Assembly (NCBI GenBank): GCA_026874595.1
Contig: CM049307.1
Span: 78,282,643 to 78,346,642, forward strand
DNA length: 64,000 nucleotides
Direction of reading: 5' to 3'
From: Sipunculus nudus
Taxonomy: Eukaryota > Annelida > Sipuncula > Golfingiida > Sipunculidae
Program-made: the position numbers and the translations under genes
The notes under the pieces: model-generated
Told to the model about the DNA's origin: nothing
Database searches by the model: none
The model's input: only the letters and a program-made list of their open reading frames with translations
In this document: one piece after another, positions 1-59,750 of the stretch
Position numbering within the stretch: the stretch's first letter is position 1
Layout: every line of letters starts with the position of its first letter

Positions 1-544
1 CAGTGGCAGTGATGGGGTATTAAATGGCGAAAATCTAAAAAAAAAGATCAAAGATGGCGCCACTAATCTTCAGTTCAAGAAAATAACTATCCAAGTTCTT
101 CTGGCTACCTGATTGTAAGAACAATTGATCCATGATAACTTGTGATGTCTGGCTTTATGCTGGGAAGGCATAAGAAACATCAAGGTTTTAGGACACTAGA
201 AGAAACAACAGATAAGAATCTGATCGTTTCAGTGAAGTTTAGCATTTTCAAAATAAAGGAAGAAATGCATGGAAATATAAAAAATACAGGTAGCTCCACC
301 AGTCTTCAGAACGCAAGAAACATTGATGATCAATAAGCACCAGGTTTTTTAACTTTAGATTAAACCAAAGATGAGAAACTGACATAATTACTGTTATCTG
401 ACGGTCTAAAATAGAAACAAGTTCGTAAAAATTAGACAGAAGTATAGATGGCGCCACATGTTTTCGGGGACTGACAAAACTAATCAATGTCAATATTCAA
501 GGCACGATTCATGATAATCCATGCATATCATAAAGATACTGGAG

Positions 545-705
545 ATTTTGTATCATTTTTTTATTTAACCCCAGGGTACATACAAACCCATAGCCGGGTG
601 AATATAGGTCGGAGTGACCTTATTTCAGGTTTCCATTGATTTTGAGTAAGAAGTTTCGATGTTCAGCGGTTACGATTTGTGAGGTCATATGTTCAAATGC
701 GGGTC
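545..705 (+). repeat. Fragment of dispersed mollusc-type repeat
   Basis: The block with GGTCGGAGTGACC, followed by a TTTCAGGTTTCC-like run and a GTTACGAT-like run, recurs at 29,385-29,485. There it lies just inside a hairpin-ended repeat terminus. The two copies are diverged and contain small indels, so this is an old fragment of the same interspersed family. Confidence 0.6.
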
Positions 706-734
706 ATCCTACTAATTAAACCTTATTTATACCC

Positions 735-1030
735 GAGTGAGACCGGACGATTCTTTAACCAGGCCAAGGCTGAAAAGTACACCAATGGAATTAAGGACCT
801 AGAGCTAACCCGTGATGCAACAATCGAGTTTGTGATCTAGGAGGCATATTTATTTTGGTTTGGATCCATTTATTTCATTAGCATATGCTTTTAAGACACC
901 AACAACCCTTGTATGGTGATCGATAATTTTATTATAGGCAAGTGGTCTGTTATAACTCTCAAGGTGAAATACGTGGTAACATAAGGGCTTTATGGGGCAC
1001 GGGGATATGTTGGTCATGTTGATCATTCCT
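735..1030 (+). repeat. Direct repeat, copy 1 of 2
   Basis: Shared landmarks with 2105-2385, in the same order, are a GGACGATT block, CAATCGAGTTT, TGGTGATCGATAAT and a GGAGATATGTGG-like block. Copies are clearly diverged. The spacing of about 1.37 kb and the same orientation suggest two insertions of one family or an old tandem duplication. Confidence 0.6.
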
Positions 1031-2104
1031 ATTACGGCAGACTTGTGGATAATCCCTCCTATATATTTATAAAAAGTATTTATAGTTGAGCCTCGAATAT
1101 CTAAATTGTTTGGGAACCTATTATTTGTTCGGATATTTGAAGTAACGGATATGCAAGGTAAACCATTTTTCATCAGGTATCCTGAAGGCTGTCATCGGTA
1201 TATCCAATATGCTTATTCTGCAATTAACCTATTACCAATACACATGTCTCACCGGAACATTTTTCTTTATTTTTTTTCTGTAAGAACACAAAAGTTACAA
1301 ACGTAGCGCTTGTATGCAATGAATTGACAGTGTTTGGTCAAAGCCACCATAATGAATGTTTGCTCACGTCACGCCGGTTTACTAGTGCTACCGGATACAG
1401 GTAATAATGTAAATGATTTAAGTGTATTTTTGAATGAGACATGCGAAATATCATTGTATTAGTGCAAGATTATATACGCATCATAGGTTAAGATCGTTGG
1501 CTTCGTAAATATCGCAGGTGTAGATAATTGATGTAAATCACTGACTATTTAAAGTCGAATGTAAGTAACCTTTACATAGGCATTTTATATAGTGCTTTGC
1601 CTGTAGGCTTATTTCCTATAAATCAAGTCAGTAGCTTCTTTGGTAGCGCAAGATTTTCCCTGCCTCGGAAGAACCGCCTTTCTCTGAAAAACTAGTGAAG
1701 ACAGTAAAGGACGTTCACCAAAGAGTGGAAGTTTAAACTCTGTTTGAATGTTCATTTAAGAGGGTTATTCGACAATAAACGTGATGCAAGGTCGTCATTT
1801 CATTATCCCTTGGCTATCAAGCTCTAAAAACACCCAGGTAGCGTCTGCTACAAAACCGACAGTGTCGCCAGTATCGACATTTTTTCGAAATTATGTTAAA
1901 CATGCTCAAAACTGTGTTTTTTTATTGCAGAAAAATTATGCCGGAACAGTCTTAGTAGTATATAGATTATATTTTAAATGATGACGAATGATTAACGATA
2001 TTCTGATGGCATTTTGTGCAGGGATAAGGTAATATAACCAGGCAACCATAAACATTACGAAGTTGTGTGGATCACCCTAATAGTTTAGCATTATATATAG
2101 AATA

Positions 2105-2385
2105 CCAGAGCGAGGCAGGACGATTAATATAGACTAGGTTGCGATTAATCCAATCGTTAAGGGATCAGTGACCAGTCTACCAGTGACGGAACAATCGAGT
2201 TTATGATCCAGGATTCTTTGTGATTTTTTTGTTTGGATTCATTAGCTCATGCTTATAACACACTAACGTTTGACCAGGCCCTTTACTGGTGATCGATAAT
2301 CTTGGTATAGCCATGTGCTGGTATAGTCATGCTGAGATAACAAAAGGGCTGGTTGGGACAAGGAGATATGTGGATCATAATGATA
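2105..2385 (+). repeat. Direct repeat, copy 2 of 2
   Basis: Collinear with 735-1030: it shares the CAATCGAGTTT, TGGTGATCGATAAT and GGAGATATGTGG landmarks. Short open frames crossing the repeat are not credible genes. Confidence 0.6.
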
Positions 2386-5300
2386 AATTTTTCCACAAAA
2401 GAATGACATAAGACGTCACATAATAACCCATCACCCATTTCCCGTCCTTCAACTTGTGTTGTTGGCATTTATATTTTCTCCTATTGTCGCCCACTAACGC
2501 TAACCACCTGCTCTTGCATTTCTTCCAGATTTTGTTTGTATTTTCCTACATGACACCGCCGTTGGCTTTTTTTGTTATCCCATCATTACTTTATGACATC
2601 AAATGGAAATTTAGGGGTTCAAACACACAGTGTTGAAATCAAACCAGAGGAACCGGCGCGCCGCTGGCGCCCCCTGGCGAAGTAGTTCCTAGTATCCCAT
2701 TATACAATTACCCGACTATTATTATCTACATTATGCAAGGACACTAGAAAAATTGATTTGTAAAGTTTAAGTTTTCCAAATGCTCTAGAATCATAAGGTT
2801 TCCCATATGTTTGACATTATTTATCTACCCGACAGGTTATGATATTTATAAAGGATGTTTTTGCTTCTTTAAGCAGCTTCTGCATCAGTAGTTCACGGTT
2901 CTCTTTTTCCGTATTCTCGAACGAAATCGCAACTAGAGACAAAATAAACACACGGCTTACGGTGGATGACAAGAGGGAAGCGAAATCACGGGATTATGGC
3001 CTAGCAAAACCCGAGAGTGCTTTAAAGACATACATGAACACATAACACCATCTTACGTTAACGTATGCTAAGAATTCCACTCTACCTAGATGATATGTGT
3101 TACAACATTACGTCTTCAATGTATACAAAGATGTGCGTGAATGAATATTGCATCAACATGCTTGAAAACGGAAAGCAGAAAAAGATTATGTATCATAATT
3201 ATTGGTACAAATCAACGATTCCATACCACAAAGTAATGGACATCAAAATAAAAAAAAATGACAAGCAGTCCTTTCCCTGTAAACGTATTCCTAGTATGCC
3301 TTTGTAATCATTACTTCTAGCAAAAATTTCAAAATTATTCTGAGAAATTGCAGAGACGATACTCTCTTTCAGTGTCAAATAAAAGGTCGACAACCGAAGT
3401 CAAATGAGAAGCTGATAATCAATATGGAGACTTGTTTAATGAACAACCCTTGTCAATATTCGCATATTTTTTTTTATTTTTCTCTACAGTGAAGACATAA
3501 CAGCTGACATTAAAATTCGTATTGAAAAAAAATATAAAGACAATATATTTTTACACATAAGATGTTTACAGTTTGGTGAAAAATGTATAGAAACTAAAAA
3601 CTTGCAATGCCGGGAAACAATATACATAGAAAAACGATATGATAAGTTCAACGATCAGGTAAATTTATAATATATCCAGGCTGTGTAGGATCCTATTCCT
3701 ATTATAAACTCGTCACGAACTGTAGTCAAGAACTGAAAGCTGACGGCTCGAACGCCGTGACTCGTGAACGTCAGCACAAAAGTGACAAATTCCTTTCTTC
3801 CAGCCGTCAGCCGGAAGGCTTGTCCCGATCCCGAGTAATTGCTAAAATCACAATTATTTTAAATTAGAATTATGAAATGAAACGGAAGTTGACGCGGTTG
3901 GTAGGGGCGTCAGCGTCAAGTTTTGGATTACACTTTTCATTCCTTATATCAGGTTGTCTTGGTAGCCACCAAGGGGGACTATAATATGTAAGATATATAT
4001 AGACAAAGATAGACAATAAATAAAGTAAACAACACCTATAGTCTCCAAAATGTTGCAGTTGTATTGAAAATTTGATACCTTTGTCATGGTGAAGAAGTTT
4101 TAAAGTCACCCTATTCGTGAAACCTTTATAAAACTGCCTTTCCCTGAAAATACGATCGTATCGGGGTCAAATACTTCTTATCTCTATATATTTAAAGGCG
4201 ACGAAACAGTCTTCCGTTAACGGTACAAGACGTTTCGTGGCTGCTGGTGGCTATTCGTTTTAGGAGACCGCTCATGCATAGAAATAGCTCTCTCTATATT
4301 CTATGGCTTGTACCATTCAATGCACATGTACTAAGACGTAACCAATTGTATGTACATTTTCTATACCACATCCCATAAAATGTACAAACCCGATGGTTTG
4401 GATCTTGGGGTGCATATATTCTATTGTTTGCCTATGGAATACATACATTCTGTTATTAGCTAAATGCATCATTATCTGCGTATTCATATTCTAGTTTGTG
4501 AATGTAGCCATATATTATAAAATACATGGCATCATAACAAATATTAATTGCACTAAGGCAACAGCTTACATCATGCAAATGAATGTAGTCAACATTATGT
4601 TTATAATCATGTGTAACGAAATATATACACCATGTTCCATCTGACTCAATAGGACTTAAAAAGGACATTACATTTTAATAAAAAAAAAAAGAATGACAAA
4701 CAATTTAAGATAAATGACATCTGACTCGGGCCGGACCTCACAAAAGTCCTCATCCAAGCAGCTGGTTCGAATGTGTTCTTTGGCATACAATATATTTACT
4801 TCACGTCCACCTAAACGGAACAAACGTTTATATATTACGACAGATGGTGAAACATTGTAGTCATTTTAAGGTAATTTGTGGAGGGTCAGCAAATGCGAAA
4901 CTTGCTACAGTAAGTGAGACAATAAGTGTACTAGTATATGAACAGTATATTAAGCTTGTGTCTGGTTTGTTGCCCATTCAAATTCATTTTCCATCCACTT
5001 CAATTTACCGTTGATCTACACCAAATCGAACAAATACCATATAATTTAACCATGTATTTATGATAAATGCATATCAAAATTACTGACAAAAGTGAGACAA
5101 TCTTAAGTATGATTTTAACATGTGTTACAGAAATACCATACCCATGAACTGAGGTGAACACAATTTTCTCAGTTGAAAAGATTGATAAAATTATATGGTG
5201 GTCAGATTAAGTTTAGCTAAAAAAATAAATGATAATGGAAAGGAGTATATAATTTCAAAGATATCCAAACTTCATGAGGTAACATAGTTGAACAAGAATC

Positions 5301-5592
5301 GCAGTCATACTAATAGTGCTGGATGAGGACGAAACAATTCAGAATTCAAGATTCGGGTGCAGCTGATCTGTGTACACATAAGTACTGTTTGTTGTTATCA
5401 TCCTGTCTGGCTATAACAAATTTCAGTAAAAAAAAGTATAAAATAATATTTCTGACCAAAGTCCTTCTGACTCATGATAATGATCAGAGAATCCATGTAA
5501 AAACAATTACCTTTCGTTGTCAATCTCTGTATACTCGTTACAGGTTCTGGTAGATTTTACCCTCAACCTCAGTATCTAAAATAGACCATAAA

Positions 5593-5595
<3 letters not shown>

Positions 5596-5638
<43 letters not shown>
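5596..5638. repeat. (TA)n microsatellite
   Basis: Uninterrupted alternating TA of about 43 bp. Confidence 0.95.
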
Positions 5639-5639
<1 letters not shown>

Positions 5640-6009
5640 GGTGATTAAACCAATTTCAAAATTTAGGAGTTATCAATTTTATAAATACTATAAAACTATA
5701 TAAATACTGTTATTAGTAATTGGTGTGTAGATAGATATATATATAATTCGTTATGTCTGTAAAAATTTCCAGATTAATGACCAGAATACATTGGCAAAAT
5801 GAAATTTGTTATATTTAGTGATGGTTACTGCATGTTACACCTGATAGGTCGGTGTCAGCTGGTGACAGTCTGTTGGTTAAAGGGGTGATGACCTTACTGT
5901 GACAGTTTGTCATTAAGTTTGTCATTATCAGTTTGTTAGCTTTTTTAAGGGGCTTACGAAATATTTTTTTCGAAAACTCATTCCATTTGAACACTACCAA
6001 TGTGGGTAG

Positions 6010-6013
<4 letters not shown>

Positions 6014-6065
<52 letters not shown>
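6014..6065. repeat. (TA)n microsatellite
   Basis: Uninterrupted alternating TA of about 50 bp. It inflates open frames on both strands (Ile-Tyr runs), which should not be annotated as protein. Confidence 0.95.
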
Positions 6066-6068
<3 letters not shown>

Positions 6069-6584
6069 ACGTGTGCACGCTGGTGATGTGACCAGAAAAA
6101 AGAGTAAACAGGAGCTTTTCCGTAGACCATCATTTATTATCATCATTGTTCTTTGTTGGTACATGAGCACCTCCGTATTAGTAACTTTTTTCTTTAATAC
6201 ATATATTTGTTTTGTTACCACATGTCCTATTAGTCTTTTAGGAGTGTATGCATGCAAGAGTTCAGCTAATTTGTTTGACTTGAAAAAGAACCTGGACGTC
6301 CGCATCTTTACTGGTGTGACAGATAAACGATGTGTATATTGATGGGCATCATTTATTCTTATTTGTGTGTGCGTACACGGTCACTGTATAGAAAAATAAG
6401 AGGTTGTTTGTGTGTATATGTTTGTGCGCAAATACCTCCATCCGATCCATCATTCCCTTCTACATCCTGTCATATTTATACACAGTAGGGTGTCTTCAAA
6501 CATAATAATTACCACTTTGGTAGAACCTTACTTTTGTAGAAAGTCTCACATGTGTAATGTAGTCAGACATGAGTTGGCAACAGT

Positions 6585-13185: not shown

Positions 13186-14356
13186 TGAATCTTACTACAA
13201 TGTAATTTTAATAAAAAATGGCTTGGTGGTAACTATTGGCTGTACGAAGCTTGAAAATTAATCAGAAGCTGCTGTTACCACGCTAAATGCAGGAGGGAGG
13301 GGGTGGGGGTCCAAAATGAAACACCTGAGGACTTTATTTAGTCTTAATTTTTCTCGTGCAAGCCTTTCAGCAGTCAAACTGAGACACAGAGTAGGATATG
13401 AAAATTTTGATCTCTAACATCCTGGTTTAACGAAAGCAAAGGGTGACACGGTATGAATAGTGACCTGCTACAGAACCCTAAATGCTAGACCGTCTGTAAT
13501 TACCAAATTATTACTTGCTATTGCGTTGAAACCTGTCGGCGTGAATTCGGTCGTGTTTGTCCGGGAGGGGTTTTGATGACCATTACTGATATGGGCCGAG
13601 TCCACTGTCGAAGGTTATGATATATTGCACTTAGAGAGACCTTCGTCAAATAATGTCGTATTTTTCAGGATTTATGGGAGATATGGAGAATGACCCCCTT
13701 TGCATCATTCGAAACACTTCAACCCCCCCCCCCCCCCAAAAAAAAAGAATGGACAAACCGAGGCCTTACCACAGAAAAGAGTTATGTCCAATGCTATTAT
13801 GGACTTTACTCAGATAGGACCTTCTGCAGGTGATCATATTTACGCCTGTAGCGGGTGTTGGTATGGTGGGTTAATTCCCCTACATCTCGCAGCACACTGT
13901 TTACCTGTTATATTGTTTGAGAAATGTTAATTTGCCAGCAAAACTTATTCTAATGTAAATTGCTCGAATACAGAATAAACAGTAATCTGTGACTGCGGTC
14001 GACCCATCCGTTTCCCGGAGGAGTGTGTTATAATACTGAGTGCCACACCATCACAAAGTTGGTCTGCTTGCCAGGCTTTACCAGTCTGCAGGTGTGATAG
14101 GATAAAACTACAAGATATAACTTGAGTTTCAGAATAAAAAAATCCTCAATATGAGCCTCCCGATCGCCTGTCCCCCCCCCCAAAAAAAATGACATCCCTG
14201 TAGCCATTTTGTATGTCAGATTGGCCTGAACTGTATTACCACAAATAATTTTCAGCTTACAGAGCTATTTTTTAATCGCAGTATTATCATAAAATATAAT
14301 TGAGAATAAAATATTTGCCTGGCAGACATATTGGATTTTACTCGAGTCTGATGCCG
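13186..14356. other. No gene recognised; compound poly-C/poly-A tracts
   Basis: Contains C15A9-like tracts near 13,724-13,746 and a second poly-C/poly-A tract near 14,172-14,189. Open frames starting in these tracts are artefacts of low complexity. Confidence 0.5.
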
Positions 14357-14730
14357 TAATGTTTGTCTGTGTTCTATTAAATATCATAAAATAACATAAT
14401 ACTGGATATTAGGCAGGTTTGTCAATGGAAAAAGTCTGATTTTACCTTAAAAATATTGCAACAAAAGGTTTTTTGATTTCATATTGTTTATTTGGTCATA
14501 AAAATCCCTAGAAAAAAATCGGAGCCCTGGAAAGGGTGAGATTACATAATTTCAAGATGGCGGTCGACAAGAATTTTACTCGTCTATTACTCCTTAATGC
14601 TTCATTTTAACTCCCATAAATGTATTACAGGCAGATAGAAACATGATACCAAAGAACCAAATAAGCATAATAATAATAGTTCTGTTTGACGTCATCATGA
14701 CGTCAAGTTAATGTCATGACGTCATGAACA
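14357..14730 (+). repeat. Left terminal inverted repeat
   Basis: Pairs with the reverse complement of 19,580-19,983 through many blocks, the best being TTTCAAGATGGCGGTCGAC. Its inner edge contains three TGACGTCA palindromes (14,687-14,694; 14,698-14,705; 14,717-14,724). Confidence 0.8.
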
Positions 14731-15082
14731 ATCACTTTTACTTCTAGAGCAATTCGACTTTGCAAATTTGTTAGTAATATATTAGAAAAAAACTACACAA
14801 CTAGGTCTTTCAACAGAATGACACCAGGCTGACATCATATTGACTTCATGTGTCGTCATTGCACGGGGCTAGGTAGGCTATTTTGTACATTTCCATGTAC
14901 CATGTTCAAACATCAGATTAAGAGTCATCGTTTTCGTCTTGGTCTTTGTCAGAATCTACAAGATCAGATCGGTTAAACGGGTTTTCACAAGACAAAGTCT
15001 GACACTGCCCACATGCAGATGTACAAGGTAAGCTATATACCTGACAGGTGCAGCGTCGTGAGGTACATCCAGCTGTACAATT

Positions 15083-16257
15083 TCAATGAACGACCTTCAG
15101 CAGGCTATCCGGCTCTGGAGATTTCGCAGTCATAATTGGACGGAATTGGCCATTTTCATATTGCCAACCCCACTGTGTAGCATCATGATCACTCTCTTTG
15201 CCGAGCCATGTCATTATTTGGTAATAACATCTAAGAGAATGGTACGTAGTGGCTGATGGATTAGGGGGGAGCCTTTTTGGGGCCACGAAACTTGTGCCAG
15301 AAACAACCTTTCTTTTCAATACACGTTGCCTCAAACCAACCAATTCATCGGATGCTTTTCCTTCAAACAGCAGAATCATGGCTTCATGCCAATTCTGTTC
15401 AATTTTCTCACAGGTCTCACCAGGGTTGGTAAAGCAAACTGCACATGATTTCATATCTTCCTCACCCTTAACCAACCTCTGGAAAAGTGGCTTTTTCCCA
15501 ACACCAAATATTCGCGAAGTCGTATCACACCCTGTAAAGCTGTGCGCGAATAGCAAGACTTTGAGTTTGTTAATGTTGTACACATGAATAGTGTCCTTGG
15601 ATTTCTTGTCAGAGCGAAAGAACAAGCTCTAATTATCTGGATTCATGAAACACAGGAGAAGCACCAACAAATCTGTGTCCTCTCCAATAAGAGCGGTGGA
15701 CCCATACGCAGAAGCTGCAATGGCAGCTTGAACAATTTCCGTATTAGCGTCGCCCTCACAGTCCACAACATGGCAGCCTTTTTTCCTCAGCTTGGCACTT
15801 ATGACATTTATCAGTGCTTTGTTTCTGGAGTAACACTGACTAATGGTTGCGATTTTTGTTGACGCCTCTCATGGCAACTATCCTTGATGGATGGTACATT
15901 ATCTTTGTATCCGTCAAACACCACAGTAGTTTTTCCATAGTTCTTAAGGGTGAAGTCAACATATGAATCAGCGATGGTGCCATAGGTATCGCCTTTAGTC
16001 CATGAGACCCGATGAATGAGGGATCCACCATCTAAAACATAATTGTCAGTCTTAGGGATTTCAGTTGTTACAGCTTTGCCAGGATGTCCTTTCGCATATT
16101 CCTCAATAGCTCTGGCCAGTTGCGGTTTCTCTGGCTTTCTGAGGACATACTTTGCCTCAAATAGAGCTGGCGGAAATGGACTTAATTCATATTCAAGTGC
16201 ACTTTCCAAAGACAAATCTCCAGCCCCAGAAATCACAATCAGTCCCTGAAACAGCAA
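15083..16257 (-). pseudogene. FEN/XPG-like PIN nuclease domain (broken)
   Basis: Acidic motifs occur in flap-endonuclease order: VVFDGY followed by KD..HERR; CEGDANTEI then GEDTDLLVLLL; and FAHSFTGCDTTSRIFGVGKK. These parallel the FEN1/XPG family's VFDG, the EAEA glutamates, the TxDxD aspartates and the GCDY..GIGPK helix-hairpin segment. They would supply the metal-binding acidic set of a 5' nuclease. A frameshift near 15,830 and a TAG at 15,629-15,631 interrupt it, so this copy cannot make the whole domain. A C-terminal extension ends in SLLKVVH before TGA at 15,083. Domain assignment is by motif correspondence, not by search. Confidence 0.65.
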
Positions 16258-18413
16258 TGCGGGGTCTATGGACTTGTCTGGTGCTAATTTGTGCTACTTT
16301 GACAGCGGATAAGTCACCAAGTGCTTTTAAAAGAGTATGTAAATACCGGTTGCCCCACAAGCTTTTCGATCACTTTCTGTCCTACGCTTTGAAAGTCATC
16401 AACGTCAACAGTTTCATGAGCTACTAAACCTGTAACAATATTGCGCAAAGTACTGTCCTCTGAAAATGGGCTACATGACTCTAGTTTTGCCTTGATCTTT
16501 GACAAGTCTGACTGGTCTCTTTTTATCCTTGCCTCTGACAGGATACGCTGCTCGTCAGTTACACCGCTGCCTCTTGTGAGACCTCCAGAAGATTTCAGTG
16601 ACCTCATCAAAGTCTGCTCAATCACAAGATCTGCCCCAAGTCCAGCCCAAAACTGATCTGTTCTTCGAATTACATGGAATCCCTCCATGAACTTTCTGAA
16701 TACTTCTGGGTGTCAAGATTCAAGGTCTTTCATCTCTTGCAGATATAGATATACTGACTTCAGATAATTATTATGCCCTGCTGCTGCAAAGATAGGTAAA
16801 CATTGCCCTAAAGCCCAGAGGTGTTAACAATGAACTGTAGAGTTCATCACATTCAGTGACAATCCCTGCAAAATCTGCATCTTGGTCCTTCTATTCAGTG
16901 ACCAGCATCCCATTTAAACACTTCTCAACCAACAGATGGCCCCTGAAACCACGTTGTACAGACTTCCCTGTCATGATATGTTTCACAGCATTATCTCCAT
17001 AAATCTCTTCAAAAACGTCTTGGAGACCAGACCCGGCCATGAGGGTCCCAATGGCACCGATCAAGTTCATTAGAGTTTGAAAGCTACCGAACATTACCAC
17101 GATTGTTTTCAATGGGCTGTCCTTTGGTGAGTTGTGGATGATTTCAGTAGCCTTCCAGAAAAGGGGTTGATCAAACGTAATGACGGGTGGAACATTGTGC
17201 CTGTGCGCAAGACTGCTGATGTAGGTAAGAGTGGACAAGATACAGGTTGGGTTCCCTGGATACATGTCAGTCATGGGCAAGTAGTTAATAGAAGACTTGC
17301 CGGGGTGTTCCCGACCGCTGTGGATAACATGCATCATTCCTCCCAGTTAGGGACTGGTTTACGGAAACGGAGAGAGCTCCCAAAGGATGTCGACGGACGG
17401 TTCTGAGCCACAAAACTGTGGAAAAGTTTGAAAAAGATTACATTGCGACGCGCGTAGTTCGAAAAGCGGTAATCTCTAATGTCAATCCTTGCCATTTCTG
17501 TGACCTTCAGAACCGATGAACTTCTTCTAGGTATTACATGCGTGGTTTTACTCCTGGCGTGGTGGCAGCAATCATACCCATGCCTTGAAAGGTCCCTTTC
17601 CCATCGATGGTTAAGATATTGTGGTTAACGTTGTCTGCTGCAAACACAAACATATGCAGTATCGGTCCTAATACCCCCATCATTCGAAACCACATCTGCA
17701 GCATTCTTCTGAAATCTTTGCACCTCAGAACATGAGGAACAAAACCCCATGGTCGACAGATTGTCCACAAGAATTCTAGAATTGTACAGGTAGTGCAACT
17801 GTGACGCCAGCCCAAATTGTAGTGGGGCTATTACAGCACGTGGACGAGCAGCCTGTATAATTGATTATTGACCAATGGATGCTACTTTCTGATGCTTGGC
17901 AGTCCCAACAATGATCAGGTCTAACAATGAACGAAAGGACATCGAAGAAAGTCAAAGGCGGGACTCAAACTAGGACTTGTTGACGGAGGATACTGATAAG
18001 TAACCGACGGAACAGTGGTCTTGATTTCACTTTTGATTTACCTAGCAGCAGCATCAATGATGGCATGTTTCTGACTATCTTCATCTCCACAACGAGCAGT
18101 TCTAAAATATTCGCGAAGTATTTTCGATGTATTTTCTCGCATAGTCACTATATCATGGAGCCCTTCACCCTCAGCTATAAAAATTGAGTTGTCATAGCGC
18201 TCTTTCAGTTTTTCTTTAAAGTATTGATTCCCATATGGGACAGAGTCATCCTCTAGTTAATAGCCTTTCATTTCACTCACCAAATCTGAAATCGTCAACT
18301 GTTCTTCATCATTCATTTCTAAATATATACATGCTTTCAAAAAAAGCCTGCTGGTGGTCCTCATTTTTGGGTCGACCCAGTCTCTTTCTTTTTATCTCAG
18401 ATAGTCTGAATTA

Positions 18414-18995
18414 CTAAGGAATGTCCCGTCCTGTTCGAAAGTTTGTCCTACATTGATTGTGATTGATACAATCTGCAGCATGAAGATCTTCACCGAAATA
18501 CTGAATTCGGCCACGAACAGTAAATGCCCAATCATCTCCACGTTCTTCACAATGTCTTAGTACAGTCTGAGGGAAAGAACTAGTTTTCACTTCACTTACA
18601 AGCTCATCACGACCGTGGTTACTCCTTACGATGTCCTGTCCACAGAACAAGCAGTCTGTTTTATTATTATAGGGACCCAAGCTTACACGTGCACTCCTCT
18701 TCTTTATTTGTGAATGTGATGGACCAGGGATTAAGTCTCGTTTAACGGCTTTCGAATCCGTCCAATGCTTCCGACATTTCTTATGGACTCTTTGACCAGC
18801 TTTTGCAACAACATCCCTCTGGCCACGCATCCGACTGTATTTATTGATTGTATCAGCACCTTTCTCAAAAAGAGTGCTGATCTCTCTGTCATCTTCATTA
18901 CCTAATTCTTCTTTACAGATTGGACAGACTTCTGCTTCAGGATCACTTAAACTCATGCTTAGGCTCGTATGAATAAAAACCCAAAAATTCTTCAT
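18414..18995 (-). pseudogene. N-terminal Cys/His-rich (zinc-binding-like) segment of the transposon protein
   Basis: An open stretch of 193 codons starting at ATG 18,995-18,993 is proposed as the start of the element's protein. Cys and His residues are arranged in two sets. The first is VCPICKEE with a distal HKKCRKH. The second is CLFCGQD with HGRDELV, LRHCEE and AADCINHNQC. This spacing is typical of structural zinc sites used for DNA or protein binding. It ends with NFRTGRDIP at the stop next to 18,414, where the conserved protein would be expected to continue. The break there is either an intron or a lesion. Confidence 0.65.
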
Positions 18996-19579
18996 ACTCT
19001 TATTTGGGCTTAGACTCCCATCTCTTCAAATTGAAAGTACATGTAATTTATGAAATATCTGCATTCTGTAGACATGTGCTTTAGGCCACAGGACATCAAG
19101 TTGAACAAATAACTCATTTTAAACTTGCATGACAGTTTGGTATATACCTGGTGTTTCCTTTCATTATGTTTTCATGCATATGGCTACAAGTCTAATGTCA
19201 TTTTTCTGCAGATCAAGACACTTGCAAGCATGGCTTCAACTAATTTTTCGTTTATTTAATTAAAAGTCTGTGATGACAGCACTAAAATAATAAAATGTAT
19301 TAGGTGCTAAGTAAACACAAAATTTGGCTTACCATTGATAATGAAAGTCTGGCCTTCTGCACTTTCATAAATTTAAAAGACCATGCCTATTTCTTAAAGT
19401 TAATACTATCTTTCATAATTAATTGCACCCAGCATCTCCACAGAACATTAAAGAGACAGAAATTACATTAAATTAGCAAGTTATTTTGAAATTAGAGAGC
19501 TGAATTCAAATAAGCTTATAAAAATTTCTGTATGACGTAACCATGACGTCAGGTCAGATAAAATTTGTAAAAAATAAAG

Positions 19580-19983
19580 CGCTGTGACAAATTTTACCTG
19601 TCATGACGTCATTGTGATGTTATACAGAACTTTCTATTAAGCTTATTTGATTCATTGGTATCATGATTTTATTTGTTTGTAATACATTTATGCGGTTAAA
19701 ATGAAGCATAAAAGAGTTGTTGGCAATTGAAATTCAGGTCGACCGCCATCTTGAAATTATGTGATCTTACCCCTTTTCCGGGCTCCGATTTCGGGAGACT
19801 TTTTTTCGGGAGATGCGGAAAGCCTACATAACTATTTAAAGCAAAAAAAAAACTTTTGTTGCAATTTTTTTTAGGGTCAGGAGATATAATTTCATATATT
19901 GACCTGCCTAAAATACGACCTCCACCTAAAATGTATGTGCATACTTTATAGCGTGTGATAGAAAATGGTAAAACATGAAACAA
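19580..19983 (-). repeat. Right terminal inverted repeat
   Basis: Reverse complement matches the left arm across about 370 bp with substitutions and small indels. A TGACGTCA palindrome lies at 19,604-19,611 and another just inside the arm at 19,544-19,551. Since the gene reads from this side, any promoter is expected near here. Confidence 0.8.
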
Positions 19984-20129
19984 GTAAAGTATTACAGGCT
20001 ATGAAGAAAACCACAAAACTGCAATATAAACGAAACATCGGGATAACAGCAGAAGTAACAGGAGTAGTTTTGATACAGAGCTCCATTATTAGCCTTGTTT
20101 CCCTAGAAATGTGAAATACAAAAAATGTT

Positions 20130-21010
20130 GTTAAAAATTATTCATAACAAATGCACTGCAAACGTGCATAATATGCCAATTGTGTATTTAGCCACCTCTG
20201 ACCTCATTACAAATGAGTTTTGATGAGTATAAAATTCAGGTGAAAAACTCGTTTGGTAAATATGTTCTTGGAGTTTCATGAAAATCCATCGTATTCCTCG
20301 TAAGTTGTAGCGGCGACACCACAAAGTAGCCTTGTGACCTCTGACCTTATTATATATGCGGGTATTTTGCCAATAATCGAACTTGGGTGGGTAAATATAT
20401 TGGTAAGAATTTATGGTGATTTCCTAAAAAAAATCACTCTAAAGCCCTGTTCAGTTATCGGGACGACACTAAAAGTTAACTGACAGAAACGGACAGACTC
20501 TTTGAGAAATAGTATTACGTTTGAAATGTAAAAGTTTTGTATAAAATCAATTAAAAAATCCAAAAATCATTCAAGTATGACCTAATCCTAACCAGACCCA
20601 AAAGATGACCCTACCACCACGATAAGAAGTAAGTCTGAGTCGCTTGAGAAATGTTCAAATTTTGCATAAAAAAAATCAGAAAAAAAATTTAAAAATCATT
20701 CAAGTGAACCAAAACCTAGTCAGCTCTGATTTTTTAAAGAAGATCCGGGTAAAACTTTTTGAGATATCGGGTTGCATATGTTATGTCTAAATTTTGCATA
20801 AAAATACATAAAAAATAAGAAATCAAAACCTAACCAGCTTCGGACACCTAAAAGATACACCTGCTTCTACAATTTGAAGTAAATCTGAGTAACACTTTTT
20901 GAGATATCGCCTCGCATAAAATTGATAACGGACAGACAAACGGACAGATGGCACGACGGACGGCACGATGGATTGAAAGAGGAACGGAGCTGATCACTTT
21001 ATCCCCCGCT
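20130..21010 (+). repeat. Tandem-structured interspersed repeat with GGAC-rich end
   Basis: Around 20,500-20,930 three degenerate units of about 130-150 bp repeat the landmarks TTTTGCATAAAA, CCTAACCAG, GTAAGTCTGAGT-like and TTTTTGAGATATCG. The block ends with ACGGACAGAC and GACGGACGGC-like runs and a TTTATCCCCC terminus. Upstream, two copies of a CCTCTGACCT..ATTA landmark occur at about 20,195 and 20,338. Typical of interspersed mollusc repeats; no coding capacity. Confidence 0.6.
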
Positions 21011-43179: not shown

Positions 43180-44203
43180 TCAATCTGAAGAATCACCATT
43201 ACATTTCAGTCTTTGATTCAATTCGTCCCTGGTTTTGCTGTTTGTTAATATGAATGTGGAAAACGGGATTATGTCATAAAATGACAAGAGCATTTCTAAC
43301 AGCATAAGTGTTTGCCGGGATTGAATAAAATCTTGAAACACTATACTTATAAATCGACCCACCACCATAGGAACATGGCAAACAATAAACATAGTAGTAG
43401 TGACGAATGCTGTTACTTTAAATCGGGAAATGACGCTTTGCCAATCTGTATTACATGACGACCCCGGCCTTGCCTTTTTGGCATTAACAAGAAAGATCAG
43501 AATCGCAGTGTTACAACCTATCAAGGTTACCGTACCTATAAAATAAAAAGCGGCAATGATTATCATAGCTACACGCACAGCAAACCGTGTACACTTCTCA
43601 CTCTTGTAATCATGTAGTGTAAGAATAACGGCACCGACAATTAGATTGAAAGTAATGATAAAAGCGGTAGATATTGCAATCCTCTTACGTGACCAAAGTC
43701 TAGCTGCCGAAAAAGGCACAGCCATTGCTCCAAGTTGCATACATGCTATAGCCGTGATAAAAAAGATGACGCAGTCATTGGAAAATGCAGATGTAAGCAG
43801 AAACCAGGGGCAAATATGCCCTGGTTGGGTAAAAACATAGCCATACTCAATTAAAACCAGATGGTTAGCACTGCGTAATATCAGACACACAGACAAAGCA
43901 ATATAGTATATTGATACGGCTTTTGAGATCATGCTTGTTAGACATATTACCAATATAGCGAGCAGGTTAAGGGGAAGCGAAGCACACCTTAAGGTTGTTG
44001 TGATGATTTGTAAAGTGTCCTCTATCTTGATGCCATGGACACCAACAAAGGTTGACGGCGAAACATCAAACGCGACCCCCATGACTCCATGCGTAACGAG
44101 GAAGGGTTGTTTGGTCTGCGGATCATACTGATTGGTGCTTGGATTTATGGTGAAATTTTCATTGACACCAACATACTCCAAGGCAGCACTGCTTTGAAGG
44201 CCC
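43180..44203 (-). CDS. Divergent rhodopsin-like (class A) G-protein-coupled receptor, terminal coding exon
   Basis: One long open exon encodes about 333 residues with seven hydrophobic helices, roughly TM1 58-81, TM2 91-112, TM3 125-152, TM4 168-189, TM5 201-232, TM6 253-277 and TM7 289-312 (residue 1 at 44,181). Class A marks are an N-glycosylation site near the N-terminus (NFT), Asn in TM1 (LPLNLLAI), Cys124 at the top of TM3 with Cys197 in loop 2 as a likely disulfide, CHVP for CWxP in TM6, and a basic cytosolic tail. The DRY motif is absent (QLG in its place) and TM7 has IPFSTF for NPxxY. No ATG lies in frame between the upstream stop and residue 34. TTTCTCTTCAG ends at 44,204, so I place a splice acceptor there and expect the start codon in an upstream exon. 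No lesions are seen. Likely an orphan peptide-type or chemosensory receptor of a lineage-expanded family; ligand unknown. Confidence 0.75.
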
Positions 44204-46594
44204 CTGAAGAGAAATATGTATTTATATTGTACATTTTCATCTTACTATAAAACAGCACTATGAAGAAGGCTTTCATTCAATTGTTACATCATGTGGCTGT
44301 TCATCATGTATTATTCTTAATTCTTCCTCTGTCGCAACACTGGATACCGTGAGCAGAAAAGTTAATCATGTGTAACCTTGTATTTATTTTGTAACTTTAT
44401 GGCTCGAGTCAAACATAGTGCACCAATGGAGACCCTAGATGTAAAACAATTAACAAAAGATAATTATACAATGATACACAACATTTATACGAACAAACAA
44501 GAATATTAAATAAATACAGTTGCATAAAAGATTAGGCAAGTTGGGCAAAATAAGGATCAGGACTACGTGGTTATAAGCAAATACCATACGTACAATTTAT
44601 TTATACAGCCAGGCTGTTCACACTTTCATTTACAATAAGACAATACATTGGGTATGATGTCAACATAATAAGCTCGACTTGGTCGATATCTCGATGCCAT
44701 GCAGAATACTTGTAAAATTTATTTCAGGCAGATACCATGATTTCAAAATTGTCCTTATTATACCTCATTATTGTACATGCTATATTTTTTTTTCAGAATC
44801 ATAAACATTATAAGACAGATTTCATGCCATGAAAGGCTTTAACTCATGTGGGATAATGTCACATTTTTTTTCTTGTAAACCACAAAAAAAAAAAGATTTT
44901 AACAGATTTCCCTTTTTCCACCTCAGAATAGTTATGCTATATCTTGATATTTTTGGCACTGTAGAGGATAACATTATTTGGCAGATGTCATACTGTGAGG
45001 GGCTTATACGAATGATGAAGTGAAACATGTTCAGAAGCGTGTTTGCTTCTTTCACATAAATATTATCTGTAATATGAATCAGTCGAAAATAATTAATATC
45101 TAAATGTGAACGTTTTAGGTATATTTTTTAAATATTTATTAGAGGTATTCGCCTTAATTTTAATGCTTAGTATGCACACTGTATGCGGACTGTATGACAG
45201 GGCAGCAGCACGTTGCACTTGCGGGCCCTGGGTGTGTAATCTTCCCCTAAAACTTGCAGAGTGCTCACCCTTAGCGGGGACAGACCGTTAAAAGTCTCAC
45301 CATCTCGGCTGAGATTCGAACTCGGCTGTGGGTTCATCCCTCTACCGGGAGACCACAGAAGCCGTTTTAAGTATACTAATCAATATAATCTTGCTCAAAT
45401 ATCATGTGTCATGTTGAATGGGGATGGGTATACTATTTATGATAGACAAGTAATGACATGGCTGATATATTTAGAATATCAACTTCATTAGGCACTTTGA
45501 ATCGGGATGTATATTTCAGAGATATCCGCAAAGTCACTTTTTTTATTAAGTCTCCCGCCGCAATTCTATGTTGGTACAACAGTCCCTTCAGCTCTGCTTA
45601 ACATTACAAATAAATATATATATTTTTTAGTTTCACAACATTCTAGTACAGGACAATCACTGAACTGAATGTTATCTGTATTCCTGGAATACAAATAATT
45701 CAAAAACATCAAAATAGTCAGATGTCAGTGTTAGTTAATTCCAGCGCCAGCTGATTTGATTAGCTGAAATGGTAGGACTTGTGACCCTTGTTGGAAGGAT
45801 TTGATACATTTTGGATTTTAAACTCTATCGAAAGACATGTTGGAGTTCTGTCTGTTTGAAATGTTTAGGTTTGAAAGGTAAAAAATTTAGGGGTACATTT
45901 TAATGAAATTCTGAACAGCAGTAATAAAGTTAAGATATTATCTTTATTCACGCAATGTCAGACGAGAGCAAGTCAACCTGTCGTTGAGTAACGTATTTAG
46001 TTCTCCTTAATTTATTCAATTAAATCCATTTAGATAAAATCCAACTATTACTCAATGAATGAAATCCAATTATCGTTCGATGAACATAAATCCACAGGCC
46101 TTGGAATAGACTTCAGTCCAAAAAAAAACATGAAAAATCCATCTTCATTTTGAGCAATATGACCGATGCCAAACGGCAGTTCCATGGCATAACATAAAAA
46201 AACTAAGGAAATTGCCCTTGTTTACACGAAATTATTTGAAATCAAAATAAAATTCTCTTTCACTAAGGAAATATAGGGTGTGGAAACAAGCGATTGAAAA
46301 ATAACATAATAAGACCTTACCTACTTAAAGTAGACAAATACATGATATATCCATCACGTCTCGGGGTAGACGCTCTGAGTGCTTGTCTGATTATCGTTGT
46401 GAATCGGTCATATATATCTCCGTAACTTTATTCACCAGTCAAAGCTCTCATTAACATAGCTGGCAAAGACGCTCCAATCACATTCGAAAAGCGGGCTCTT
46501 AGTAACATATATAATCATGCTGGCTTGTTCAGTCATGAATATGAAATTAAAGCAAGAACATCTTGTGCACTATTGATTGGATATCATGATTTTC
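44204..46594. other. Intergenic/intronic stretch, tRNA-derived SINE, no gene
   Basis: The receptor's upstream exon(s) may lie here but none was recognised. Short open frames at 44,822-45,055 and 45,106-45,491 are AT-rich or cross the SINE-like segment. Confidence 0.45.
45285..45368 (-). repeat. tRNA-derived SINE head (Pol III box-like)
   Basis: On the minus strand a box A-like TGGTCTCCCGGTAGAGGG is followed about 30 bp later by GAGTTCGAATCTCAG, close to the tRNA B-box consensus. The region reads like a degraded tRNA with an acceptor-like GGCTTCTG start. It cannot fold into a full tRNA by eye, so I call a SINE head. Confidence 0.5.
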
Positions 46595-48130
46595 AGGTAC
46601 ATTGGTTGCCCCCCCCCCCCGCAAAAAAAGAAAAATCTCGAAATTTCTGAATTATTTAATGTATTTAAAGTATTTTAATTCAGGGGCGAATTGACATATT
46701 CTAGAGTGCTTATACGGAAAATTGGACAGCTTTGGCTGGATTCGAACTCAGATCAAAATTCCAAATTTAAATCTCACTGCTCGGTCCCAAAATGTTTTTA
46801 TTTTTATCACGTTTGGTCATTGCCGATCCTTCCATAAACAAATTCACCAGTCACGCCGAGAAAAGTTTTAAATCCGGAGTGCTATAAAGCATGGATCGTT
46901 GTATGACTCTCAGAATAGTAGACACCGTGTTTGGATATTAAGCAAGATCCTTAGAGTTCCATGGTTTTGGTGTTTACCCTTTTCGGTCTTCAAGATGGCG
47001 TATTTATCGCTCATATGACACAAACTTTTAATTTGCTTGGGGAATCACGTCAGATTCGAACATCATATAAAAAAGATTATCTCCACCATATTTTATAAGA
47101 TTATCACAATTTACGACATAACATAATATTACGTAAGATGCCACATGAGATTTCGTTAAACGTCACATTACCCAAGAATTTCACGTCTTGACATTTCATG
47201 ATCAGCATCACATTTTACAACATAACAAAGTTCCCGCATCATTTAAAAGTATATGTATTGAACAGAAGGATAATTATCATACATTAATAAGGATTTTTTT
47301 TTTCTATTTGAAATAAGAATGGAATCAACCCAAGATCTAAGAAAGTGAAATAAATTTAATGAAATAATAAATTAATAATTAATAAATAAAGCAATATTGA
47401 TAATTAGGGTAATTGGCGTTATCTTGCTTTTTTACAAAAAAAAGATGGGTTTGGGAGCAGAACTAAAGCTGACAAGTTGTATACATATTCCTGCTGACAG
47501 AGAACGGTAACTTGATATTTAAGTTTCAACCGCTAGATATCGCTTGTACCCCCCCCCCCCCCTTCCCCGGAAATGAGGAGCTCTTTTTCTTTCTTTTAAA
47601 AATACTGCCTTTATAATCTTTTATGATCAGCCAGCCTGGACTTATCTGTTCCCTTCCTGTATTACAAAGACAGGTCCGTCCTTGGCGTAAATGTCAGGTA
47701 CACAATAGCCTTTTCATGAATAAGTTCATTCTATTCTAAAAAATCAGGTACACAAAAAGATACCCTAAGCACAATTTTATTCCCCCAGTGAGATATAAAT
47801 GTACTCCACTTTAAGCCCATAGTCAGTGATATCCATGGCGCGGCGTCAGTGCGCCCTCTGTCGGTATAGTCTTCTGTTTTATTAGCAGCTCAGGATTGGG
47901 TGGTCGTATTCTCACGAAAGTGGGTATGTTATACCAAGCGCAGTAAAACGCATATTGTGGCGCCACCTGTATGTTTTACGTTTGTTCGTTCTTTCTCACA
48001 CTTTGGTCACTGATTAAGAAAAATCTCAATTATTCCAACATATATCCCTGTCACCATGCAGCTTTTTATGAGGATCAAATTTATCAATATTTTTCCAGAA
48101 CTGTGGTAGACACATTTGAGAACTTGACTT
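46595..48130 (+). repeat. Large inverted duplication, outer block, left arm
   Basis: Aligns with the reverse complement of 58,300-59,750 along its whole length. Shared landmarks in order are a TTGCCCCCC tract, TATTCTAGAG, GCTGGATTCGAACTCAGAT-like, GGAAGGAT region, ATGACGT/CATGATCAGCATCACATTT-like, GATGGGTTTGGG-like, ACAGAGAACG, poly-C, CTTATCTGTTCC, AAATGTCAGGTACACAAT, GCGCCCTCTGTCGGTA, GGTCGTATTCTCACGAAA, TATTGTGGCGCCACCTGT and CATATATCCCTGTCA. There are many substitutions and indels, so it is old. No gene is present. Confidence 0.8.
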
Positions 48131-54479: not shown

Positions 54480-56122
54480 GATAAGTCAGGTTTATAAGTG
54501 CAGGCGCACTGACAAATAGCAATTTTCATAACAAATGCATATGTACGGAGTTCTTTTCCGCAGTGCCTGCAGATGCTTGCCTGATTTTTGGTGTGTGGGC
54601 AGATAATGACCAGTTACAGATCGAGTTCTCGTTTTGTCCTAGTTGACCTACTTTTGACCGTTTGAGGGTGCCCTTACATAGAAAATTTCATGAAAAATAT
54701 AAATTTTCATGACAAGTGCACATGTAGGGACTTCCTTTCGCGATGCCTGCAGATATGGGCCCGATTTTTGGTGTGGGGGCAGAAAATGACCAGTTACAGA
54801 TCGAGTTCGTGTTTTGTCCCAGTTGACCTATTTTTTTACCGTTTGACTGCTCCTGAACATAGAAAATTTCATGAAAAATAGAAATTTTCATTATAAATGC
54901 ATATGTACGGATTTTTTTCCGCAATACTTGCAGATACCGCCCTGAATTTTTTATGTGTTGGCAGATAATGACCAGTCTCAGATCGAGTTCGCGTTTTGTC
55001 CCGGTTGACCTACTTTTGACCGTTTTAAGGCTCCTAAATATAGACAATTTCATGAAAAATAGAAATTTTTAACAGATATGTACATGTACAGCCTTTTTAG
55101 CCCTCGATCAGCTCATGACTGATGGGCTATTGTCGTCACCCAAGCTGTCCGTCTGTCTGTCCGTCAATCCGTCTGGCGTCCATTAACTTTTACCTTGTGA
55201 CCGGGATATCTCTAAAAGGATTCACCGTTGGAATTTTATTTCATCAGTGAAGATGTATATCGATAAAATCTCAGTCAAGTTTGAAGATGGGTGACCATGA
55301 CCCACTTTTCTACATTTTAGAGCTGATTATAGAAAACACTCAGAAGCTTATATCTGAGGAACCAATGTGTGGATTTTCACAAAACTCATAGGGAATGATG
55401 GTCTGTACGAGCTGCACAATTTTGGTGGCAAAACCTACAATTTCTGATTTTTTAATGAATTTTTATCGGATTTTTCAACTTTGGCCTTTTGTGGAGATAT
55501 CTCCAAAGGTATTCAACGCAGGAACTTCATTTCTTCAGTGCTATTTCATATTTACACAATCTTGGTCAAGTTCAAAGATGGGTGATCTTGGCCTACTTTT
55601 CAAGGTCACAGAGCTTAGAATAAAAAAAAAACTTAGGAGCTTATTTCTCAGGAAGCATTTGGTGGATTGTAATGAAGTATGGTACATACCTCTCCAATTT
55701 AAATTTATAACTGATTATCAGCTTTTGCTAATATTCTAGTTTCGCAATGCAATGCTTACAGATACTGGCCTAATGTTTGGTCTGTGGGCACATAATAACC
55801 ACTTACAGATCGAGTTCGCGTTTCGTCCCAGTTGACCTATTTTTGACCAATGACAGATCCTGAACATAGAAAATTTCATGAAAAACAGAAACTTTTTTGA
55901 AGAATTGCACATGTATGGACTTGCCTCAATGCCTGCAGATACTGGCCTGATTTTGGCGTCTTGCTTGATAATGACCTGTTACAGATCGCGTTTGCATTTT
56001 GCCCCCGTTGACCGACTTTTGACCTTATGACAGCTCCTGAACCTAAATTTTTTTACAAAATTTAACAAATATTTCTAATTTGCTCAAGGCGGGGGCATTC
56101 GTGTCGTTCCGACACATCTAGT
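54480..56122 (+). mobile_element. Tandem-structured interspersed repeat with GTGTCG palindromic end
   Basis: Three units of 181 bp start at 54,536, 54,717 and 54,898, each with TGCA.ATGTA, GCCTGCAGATA-like, AATGACCAGT.ACAGATCGAG, TTGACCTA.TTTT and AAATTTCATGAAAAAT. Two more occur at about 55,740 and 55,906. Between them (55,090-55,740) lies a hairpin/GTCC-type segment with its own pair of ~290-bp repeats (GATATCTC, TTCAAAGATGGGTGA.C.TG). The right end, GTGTCGTTCCGACAC then ATCTAGTT, resembles a common terminus of mollusc interspersed repeats. Confidence 0.7.
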
Positions 56123-58299: not shown

Positions 58300-59750
58300 A
58301 ATTAAAAAAAAAAACTCTCTTCAGTCCAGTTCTCAAATGTATCTACCACAGTTCTGTTAAGAAGTTACAAGTTGCATGATGACAGGGATATATGTTGAAA
58401 TATTGGAGATTTATAATTTTGATAAGTGACCAACATATGAGAAAGACCTAAACATCGTCATACAAACAGGTGGCGCCACAATATGGTTTCTGCTTCGCTC
58501 TTGGAAAAAACATACCCACTGTACAATATTTCGTGAGAATACGACCAGCCACACCTGAGAAAAGCTGCTGATAGAAAGACATCTTCCGACAGAGGGCGCA
58601 CAACTACCGACAGAGGGCGCACCATGGACGCACGCCGCGTCATGGATATCTTTAACTGTGAGCCGCAAGAGGACCACAGGTATTTCCATTCCCTGGGGAA
58701 TAGAATTGTGCTTTTGTTATCTAATTGTGTACCTGACATTTACACCCAGGACGGGCCTGTCTTGGTAACACAGGTATGGAACAGATAAGTTCAGACTGGC
58801 TAATTTAAAAACGATTATAAAGAACTCTTTTAAAGAAAAGAAAAAACCTCTTTATTTGGGGGGGGGGGGGGGGGTGAAAGGCGACATCTTGCGGTTGAAA
58901 ATTTAAATATAAATTCGTTCTCTGTGAGCAGGAAATTTTATATATACATCATGTGTGCTATAGTTTTGCCCCAAAGCCCATCTTTTTTAAAGAAGCAAGA
59001 AACCGCCAAAAATTACCCGAATTATCAATATTGATTTTATCAATTACTTGTTTCATTAAATTTATTTCACTTTCTTAGGTCATGGGTCCATGTCATATTT
59101 ATATCAAATGGAAATATTCCTTATTAATGTCTGATTATTATCCTTCTGTTTTATACATATACTTTTAAATGATGCGGGAAAATTGTTATGTTGTAAAATG
59201 TGATGCTGATCAGGAAATGTCATGACGTGAAAATCCTAGGTAATGTGATGTTAAATGCGACTGTGTCATTTTACGAAATGTCATGTGAAATGTTACTGAA
59301 TGATATGTTATGTCGAAAATTGTGATAAGCTTATCAAATATGACGGAGATAATCTTTTTTATATGATTTTTTAATCTGAAGTGTTATCGTGCGACGTTAT
59401 ATCCAAGTCAAGTCAAAAGATTGCATCATATGAGCGAGAACACGCCATCTCGAAAACTGATACAAAAACCATGGAACTCAAAGGATCTTGCTCAAGATCC
59501 AGACATGATGACTACTATTCTGAAAGTCATACGGCGATCCATGCTTTATTGCACTCCGATTTCAAATTTTTCTCTCCTTGACTGGTGAATTTGTTGTGGA
59601 AGGATTTAAATTTAAATTTGGAATTTCAATCTGAGTTCGAATCCAGCTAAACTTGTCCATTTCCGAATAAACCCTCTAGAATATATGAGTTTTTTTTTTG
59701 GGGGGGGGGGGAGATGGGGGGCAAGCAATTGTTGTACTTTGTCGGTACGA
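58300..59750 (-). repeat. Large inverted duplication, outer block, right arm
   Basis: Reverse complement aligns with 46,595-48,130. This arm has an extra local duplication of CGACAGAGGGCGCAC (58,587-58,621), present once in the other arm. Poly-G tracts (58,858-58,874; 59,700-59,711) mirror the poly-C tracts of the left arm. It also keeps TGAGTTCGAATCCAGC, a B-box-like motif found in both arms. Confidence 0.8.

Follow-up and report, generated by a model that had tools for sequence, protein, structure and literature searches.

In a 64,000-bp stretch of the Sipunculus nudus genome (GenBank assembly GCA_026874595.1, contig CM049307.1, positions 78,282,643 to 78,346,642; hereafter, the window), we identified what is very probably a decayed, dead copy of a cut-and-paste DNA transposon of the AcademX type. 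The nuclease carried by AcademX elements is of the XPG type, and an initial annotation of the window had proposed that this element was AcademX or a relative of it. Two features of the wider family, a 3-bp target site duplication and an encoded nuclease, support that proposal. The parts of the window copy are listed in Table 1.

We searched the S. nudus assembly (1.43 Gb, 153 contigs) with positions 14357-15000 of the window, obtaining at least 38 matches. Among these, the left end was matched at 20 places including the window itself (four of them in the inner part of the query only); of the remaining matches, 14 fell on the opposite, inverted end and four on flanking sequence alone. We fetched 18 regions, spanning the other 19 places, plus four regions of the flanking repeat. 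Reading inward, the element starts with 5'-TAGTCAGATC at its left end and 5'-TAGGCAGGTC at its right end. Duplications were compared in the ten copies having both ends; the eight regions left out were L009, which duplicates the window copy, and others in which one or both ends went unmatched. An exact 3-bp duplication flanked eight of the ten copies (CAG, TGA, TAT, AGT, TAC, AAC, ATT and TTA). In L011, AAG could be read by eye on either flank, provided that its first base is assumed to have been substituted, and the flanks of L023 disagreed (TCC v TGC). This length lies within the 3-4 bp that had been expected. By eye, the flanks of the copies differed from one another, save in duplicated pairs and arrays (L009; L012-L014; L020/L021).

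Other copies thus carry both terminal inverted repeats, whose absence elsewhere in the genome the initial annotation had named as grounds for abandoning its reading. A reading without any transposon, in which the inverted repeats are paired by chance or the locus is a host gene, could draw on the loss of the window copy's left tip and duplication. It is refuted by the many copies that share these ends, carry 3-bp duplications and sit in differing flanks, and we give it next to no credence.

L009 (C2:80355160-80362720) is a 96.7% identical duplicate of the window copy and its flanks (13339-20871), situated about 2 Mb from it on that contig; because it carries those flanks, it does not count as an independent insertion. 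L012, L013 and L014 (C9:36.150-36.178 Mb) are three transposon copies in units spaced 9,790 bp, produced either by recent tandem duplication or by an assembly artefact. The matches of L013 and L014 end at window position 18969, so their right end seems to be missing. L020 and L021 (C2:80.77-80.79 Mb) lie about 14 kb apart; their common left flank makes them a probable duplicated pair. No second copy of the element was found within the 64-kb window.

Alignment to other copies placed the right boundary of the window copy at 19910 and its left boundary at about 14428-14433, in place of the 19983 and 14357 originally assigned; the outermost 13 bp or so of the element's left end are missing. The two ends paired as inverted repeats in local alignment (14406-14716 with 19585-19914) and were 81.7% identical across 191 bp by BLAST. 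With looser scoring, in an alignment that extends into flanking bases, they scored 169, whereas none of 50 shuffles exceeded 56.5. The inverted ends reported earlier therefore exist, but are roughly 270-330 bp long rather than about 370-400 bp.

A separate repeat family, with further members in L027-L030, occupies 13888-14427 beside the left end, and 14359-14427 is part of it. The exact 10-mer TTAGGCAGGT at 14409 sits in this repeat, where it imitates a transposon terminus and misplaces the left boundary when judged by eye. It is exact in the window, L027 and L029, and L028 and L030 have TAAGGCAGGT. Since the 10-mer belongs to the L027-L030 repeat, we ruled it out as the left terminus. A clean insertion of the window copy into the 13888-14427 repeat was likewise ruled out, because the repeat does not resume in the right flank (scores 21, 21, 26 and 21; shuffle means about 20, maxima 25-26). 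With the left tip gone and the right flank not continuing the left-flank repeat, the window copy's own target duplication is unreadable. TGACGTCA palindromes are concentrated towards the two ends of the window copy. Allowing at most one mismatch, the whole window has 41 such sites against 19 expected, and the family consensus retains three exact sites, all in the left end.

The gene of the window copy is broken into minus-strand pieces across three frames with several stops, and the copy lacks stretches of about 96 bp and about 180 bp that are present in other copies. Translation bore out the annotated layout of one minus-strand coding unit between the inverted repeats and, together with family and fold evidence, its Cys/His-rich start, conserved central blocks and XPG-like C-terminus. 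A majority consensus built from 13 copies spans 5,868 bp and holds a single, intronless frame of 1,492 codons. Copies were 84.9-98.9% identical to this consensus, the window copy 96.2%.

With the 316-residue nuclease region of the consensus as query, the same genome yielded at least 131 matches with E values of 1e-5 or less, their identity ranging between 28% and 98%. These are matches and not elements, and a single copy can account for several of them. In one relative, L114, the frame of 1,471 codons is uninterrupted, and the element (55-6145 of the locus) starts TAGGCTGGTC with TAT on either side. Another, L115, has a frame of 1,532 codons with a Cys-rich tail that looks disrupted. Two sister copies are close to L114: L109 (98.6% identity over 831 residues) and L113 (95.7% over 652 residues, with three stops). 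This near-identity suggests that the L114 family moved recently. L114, L115 and the consensus each encode the transposase-like and nuclease regions in a single frame. Both regions are matched at all 34 loci from L084 to L117, several of which are the same copy. A distant nuclease branch with 26-28% identity and long open frames was seen in L118:60-965 and L120:3-896. It has the motifs VDGQQLLYR, FDKY, DEAD and GCDTVS, and may represent host genes or a further transposon family.

The C-terminal domain is supported as an XPG/FEN/EXO1-type nuclease by a family profile and a predicted structure, which together give the fold and the metal-binding acids of the FEN1/EXO1/XPG superfamily. Seven acid positions were kept among alignment rows 26-53% identical to L114, with two exceptions (D1198 to N in one of 14 rows, D1282 to E in one of 13). 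Between L114 and L115, the nuclease domain was about as conserved as the transposase core (39% and 43%). Human EXO1, FEN1, XPG and GEN1 have the same predicted fold and catalytic acids, but are only 11-18% identical to the domain in the listed structural alignments, and the transposon nuclease differs from them in being one domain of a larger protein.

For the central core, fewer alignment rows were available (five to nine). Four L114 residues were invariant in every row covering them: D447 (5/5), D605 (7/7), H636 (7/7) and E864 (9/9). The family alignment shows the blocks ADNxDH, TFDQPLW, GxFHT and DLxIEQ. The initial annotation had seen no classical DDE (aspartate-aspartate-glutamate) spacing. 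An RNase H fold is indeed not resolved in the model of L114, but aligning the relatives brought out the four invariant residues. The core may thus be a DDE transposase, an assignment that comes from conservation because the model does not resolve the fold. The structure search, which barely tests the central part, returned no known fold for it.

Several results weigh against reading the protein as a DDE transposase joined to an XPG-type nuclease. The L114 model is poor around D447 and E864, where the predicted local distance difference test (pLDDT) score falls below 50, as it does across residues 423-578. The sole family lead for the core, DUF6589, falls below the Pfam cutoff (E 0.0011 and 0.00044); in L114 it lies at the region matching window 16894..17346. 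This lead is weak, since L114 matched OmpA_membrane, an implausible family, just as well (E 0.001). DUF6589 was not named among the literature matches listed, although papers naming it may still exist. For the nuclease, Pfam XPG_N and XPG_I matches were absent from the window pieces, the consensus and the relatives, so the profile check proposed by the initial annotation succeeded with a family profile but not with the single consensus protein. Comparison of the single consensus with archaeal FEN1 in hhalign was not significant. The best whole-protein match lay outside the nuclease (residues 559-607, probability 1.6), and one other piece scored higher (probability 3.9) than the nuclease piece (0.5).

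Other searches with single sequences added little. Against the PDB, phmmer gave weak, unrelated matches only, and the single-sequence AlphaFold2 model of the window nuclease piece had a pLDDT of 34 and was left unused. A scan of viral contigs with two window pieces found 4 and 36 stretches fitting the pattern and no relatives among them. Phages gave no match, and three proteins compared with PHROGs gave nothing under E 0.3.

AcademX elements are described as having 3- or 4-bp duplications and AcademH elements 9 or 10 bp, lengths that the source text ties to the encoded nuclease and helicase, respectively (excerpts of PMC10045372). The present family has the nuclease in one frame with the core, and its duplications are 3 bp (exact in eight of ten copies, with one substitution in a ninth and not in the tenth), as is the TAT of L114. 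The length of the element is also close to the mean of 5,565 bp given for curated bivalve Academ elements (excerpts of PMC10294476). Because nuclease and duplication length both fit, the family appears to be a further member of the kind already described as AcademX. We found no difference from AcademX in a comparison that covers duplication length and nuclease. This likeness was drawn from published description rather than from Academ sequences, and the one Pfam lead is the sub-threshold DUF6589. It is accordingly conceivable that the element comes from a different or unnamed superfamily whose own transposase became fused to a FEN/EXO1-type nuclease, in which case the likeness to AcademX would be confined to these two traits. 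We consider this improbable, as a nuclease paired with 3- or 4-bp duplications is the AcademX combination and the length agrees with the bivalve mean. AcademH, the sister Academ lineage, likewise has an accessory DNA-processing enzyme (excerpts of PMC10045372). It differs in having a helicase in place of the nuclease and longer duplications than the 3 bp seen here. Pfam helicase matches were absent from the consensus protein and L114, in a search that missed the nuclease as well.

The unbroken protein would comprise about 1,470 residues: an N-terminal zinc-binding-like part, a D...D...H...E core, a FEN1/EXO1/XPG-type 5' nuclease and a CXC-like tail. The core would cut the element ends and join them to the target with a 3-bp stagger, staggered joining being what the 3-bp duplication implies. 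The zinc and CXC parts may bind DNA, and the nuclease may clear single-stranded 5' flaps or overhangs from the donor site or the ends of the element, ahead of host gap filling. By analogy with Mu transposase, the nuclease most likely acts on 5' single-stranded ends left by staggered cutting and joining. Phage Mu transposase is described as resecting 5' flaps at new insertions (excerpts of PMC3325207), a likeness of mechanism and not of descent or sequence. Metnase, a transposase-derived SET-transposase protein, has been reported to cut single-strand overhangs at their 5' end (excerpts of PMC4593633). It is likened here by description only and differs in that the title of that paper ties the activity to the SET domain.

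We tentatively suggest that one protein cuts, joins and trims 5' flaps or overhangs, acting as a built-in flap endonuclease that makes this repair step independent of host FEN1 and EXO1. An unlikely but credible alternative is that the nuclease domain performs no chemistry in transposition, being instead a DNA-binding or regulatory part or one that counters host repair. The substitutions at D1198 and D1282 are in keeping with that. However, the seven acids are otherwise kept among divergent rows, conservation of the domain is close to that of the core, and a structural role alone would not be expected to require every metal ligand. A limited literature search, covering papers in part, found no tests of a nuclease role for eukaryotic DNA transposons.

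The L114 relative could be used to ask why a repair-type nuclease is found in some transposons. The family is well defined in its ends, 3-bp duplications and catalytic residues, and has an unbroken relative with near-identical sister copies. As the nuclease has diverged so far that Pfam misses the domain, such elements may be under-annotated.

Table 1. Parts of the decayed transposon copy in the window (window coordinates).
Feature	Position	Strand	Basis or remark
Decayed AcademX-like transposon copy	14428..19910	-	Other copies align to 14431-19910
Left terminal inverted repeat, gene's 3' side, outer tip truncated	14428..14716	.	End alignments, other copies
Three exact TGACGTCA sites in left end	14687..14724	.	
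C-terminal Cys-rich tail, CXC (Tesmin/TSO1)-like	14921..15082	-	Translation; L114 tail matches PF03638 weakly (E 0.22)
Nuclease domain remainder (EGDANTE, EDTDLL, GCDTTSRIFGVGK)	15086..15868	-	Translation, family alignment; broken by a single TAG at 15629-15631
XPG/EXO1-like nuclease domain start (VLDGGS, VVFDGY)	15814..16293	-	Translation, family alignment
Central block LVIEQTLMRSLKSSGGLTRG	16317..16712	-	Aligns with invariant E864 of L114
Central block TFDQPLFWKA	16894..17346	-	Aligns with invariant D605 of L114; GxFHT of relatives is GSFQT here
Central block ADNVNHN...DGKGTF	17537..17827	-	Aligns with invariant D447 of L114
N-terminal Cys/His-rich part (CxxC...HxxC blocks)	18417..19025	-	Translation; like blocks in L114 and L115
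Two more TGACGTCA sites, right end	19544-19551, 19604-19611		
Right terminal inverted repeat, gene's 5' side, ending ...CCTGCCTA	19585..19910	.	End alignments, other copies

Elsewhere in the window, an inverted repeat pair of 1.3 kb, 72.7% identical, lies at 46826-48129 and 58323-59605 with about 10 kb between, and a further pair lies alongside it (46696-46772 and 59610-59684). Together these are possibly another large element. An open stretch of 353 codons on the minus strand (43183-44241) has, by eye, the look of a G-protein-coupled receptor. A 181-bp tandem repeat of about three units occupies 54510-55098, with a related copy downstream at 55749-56045.
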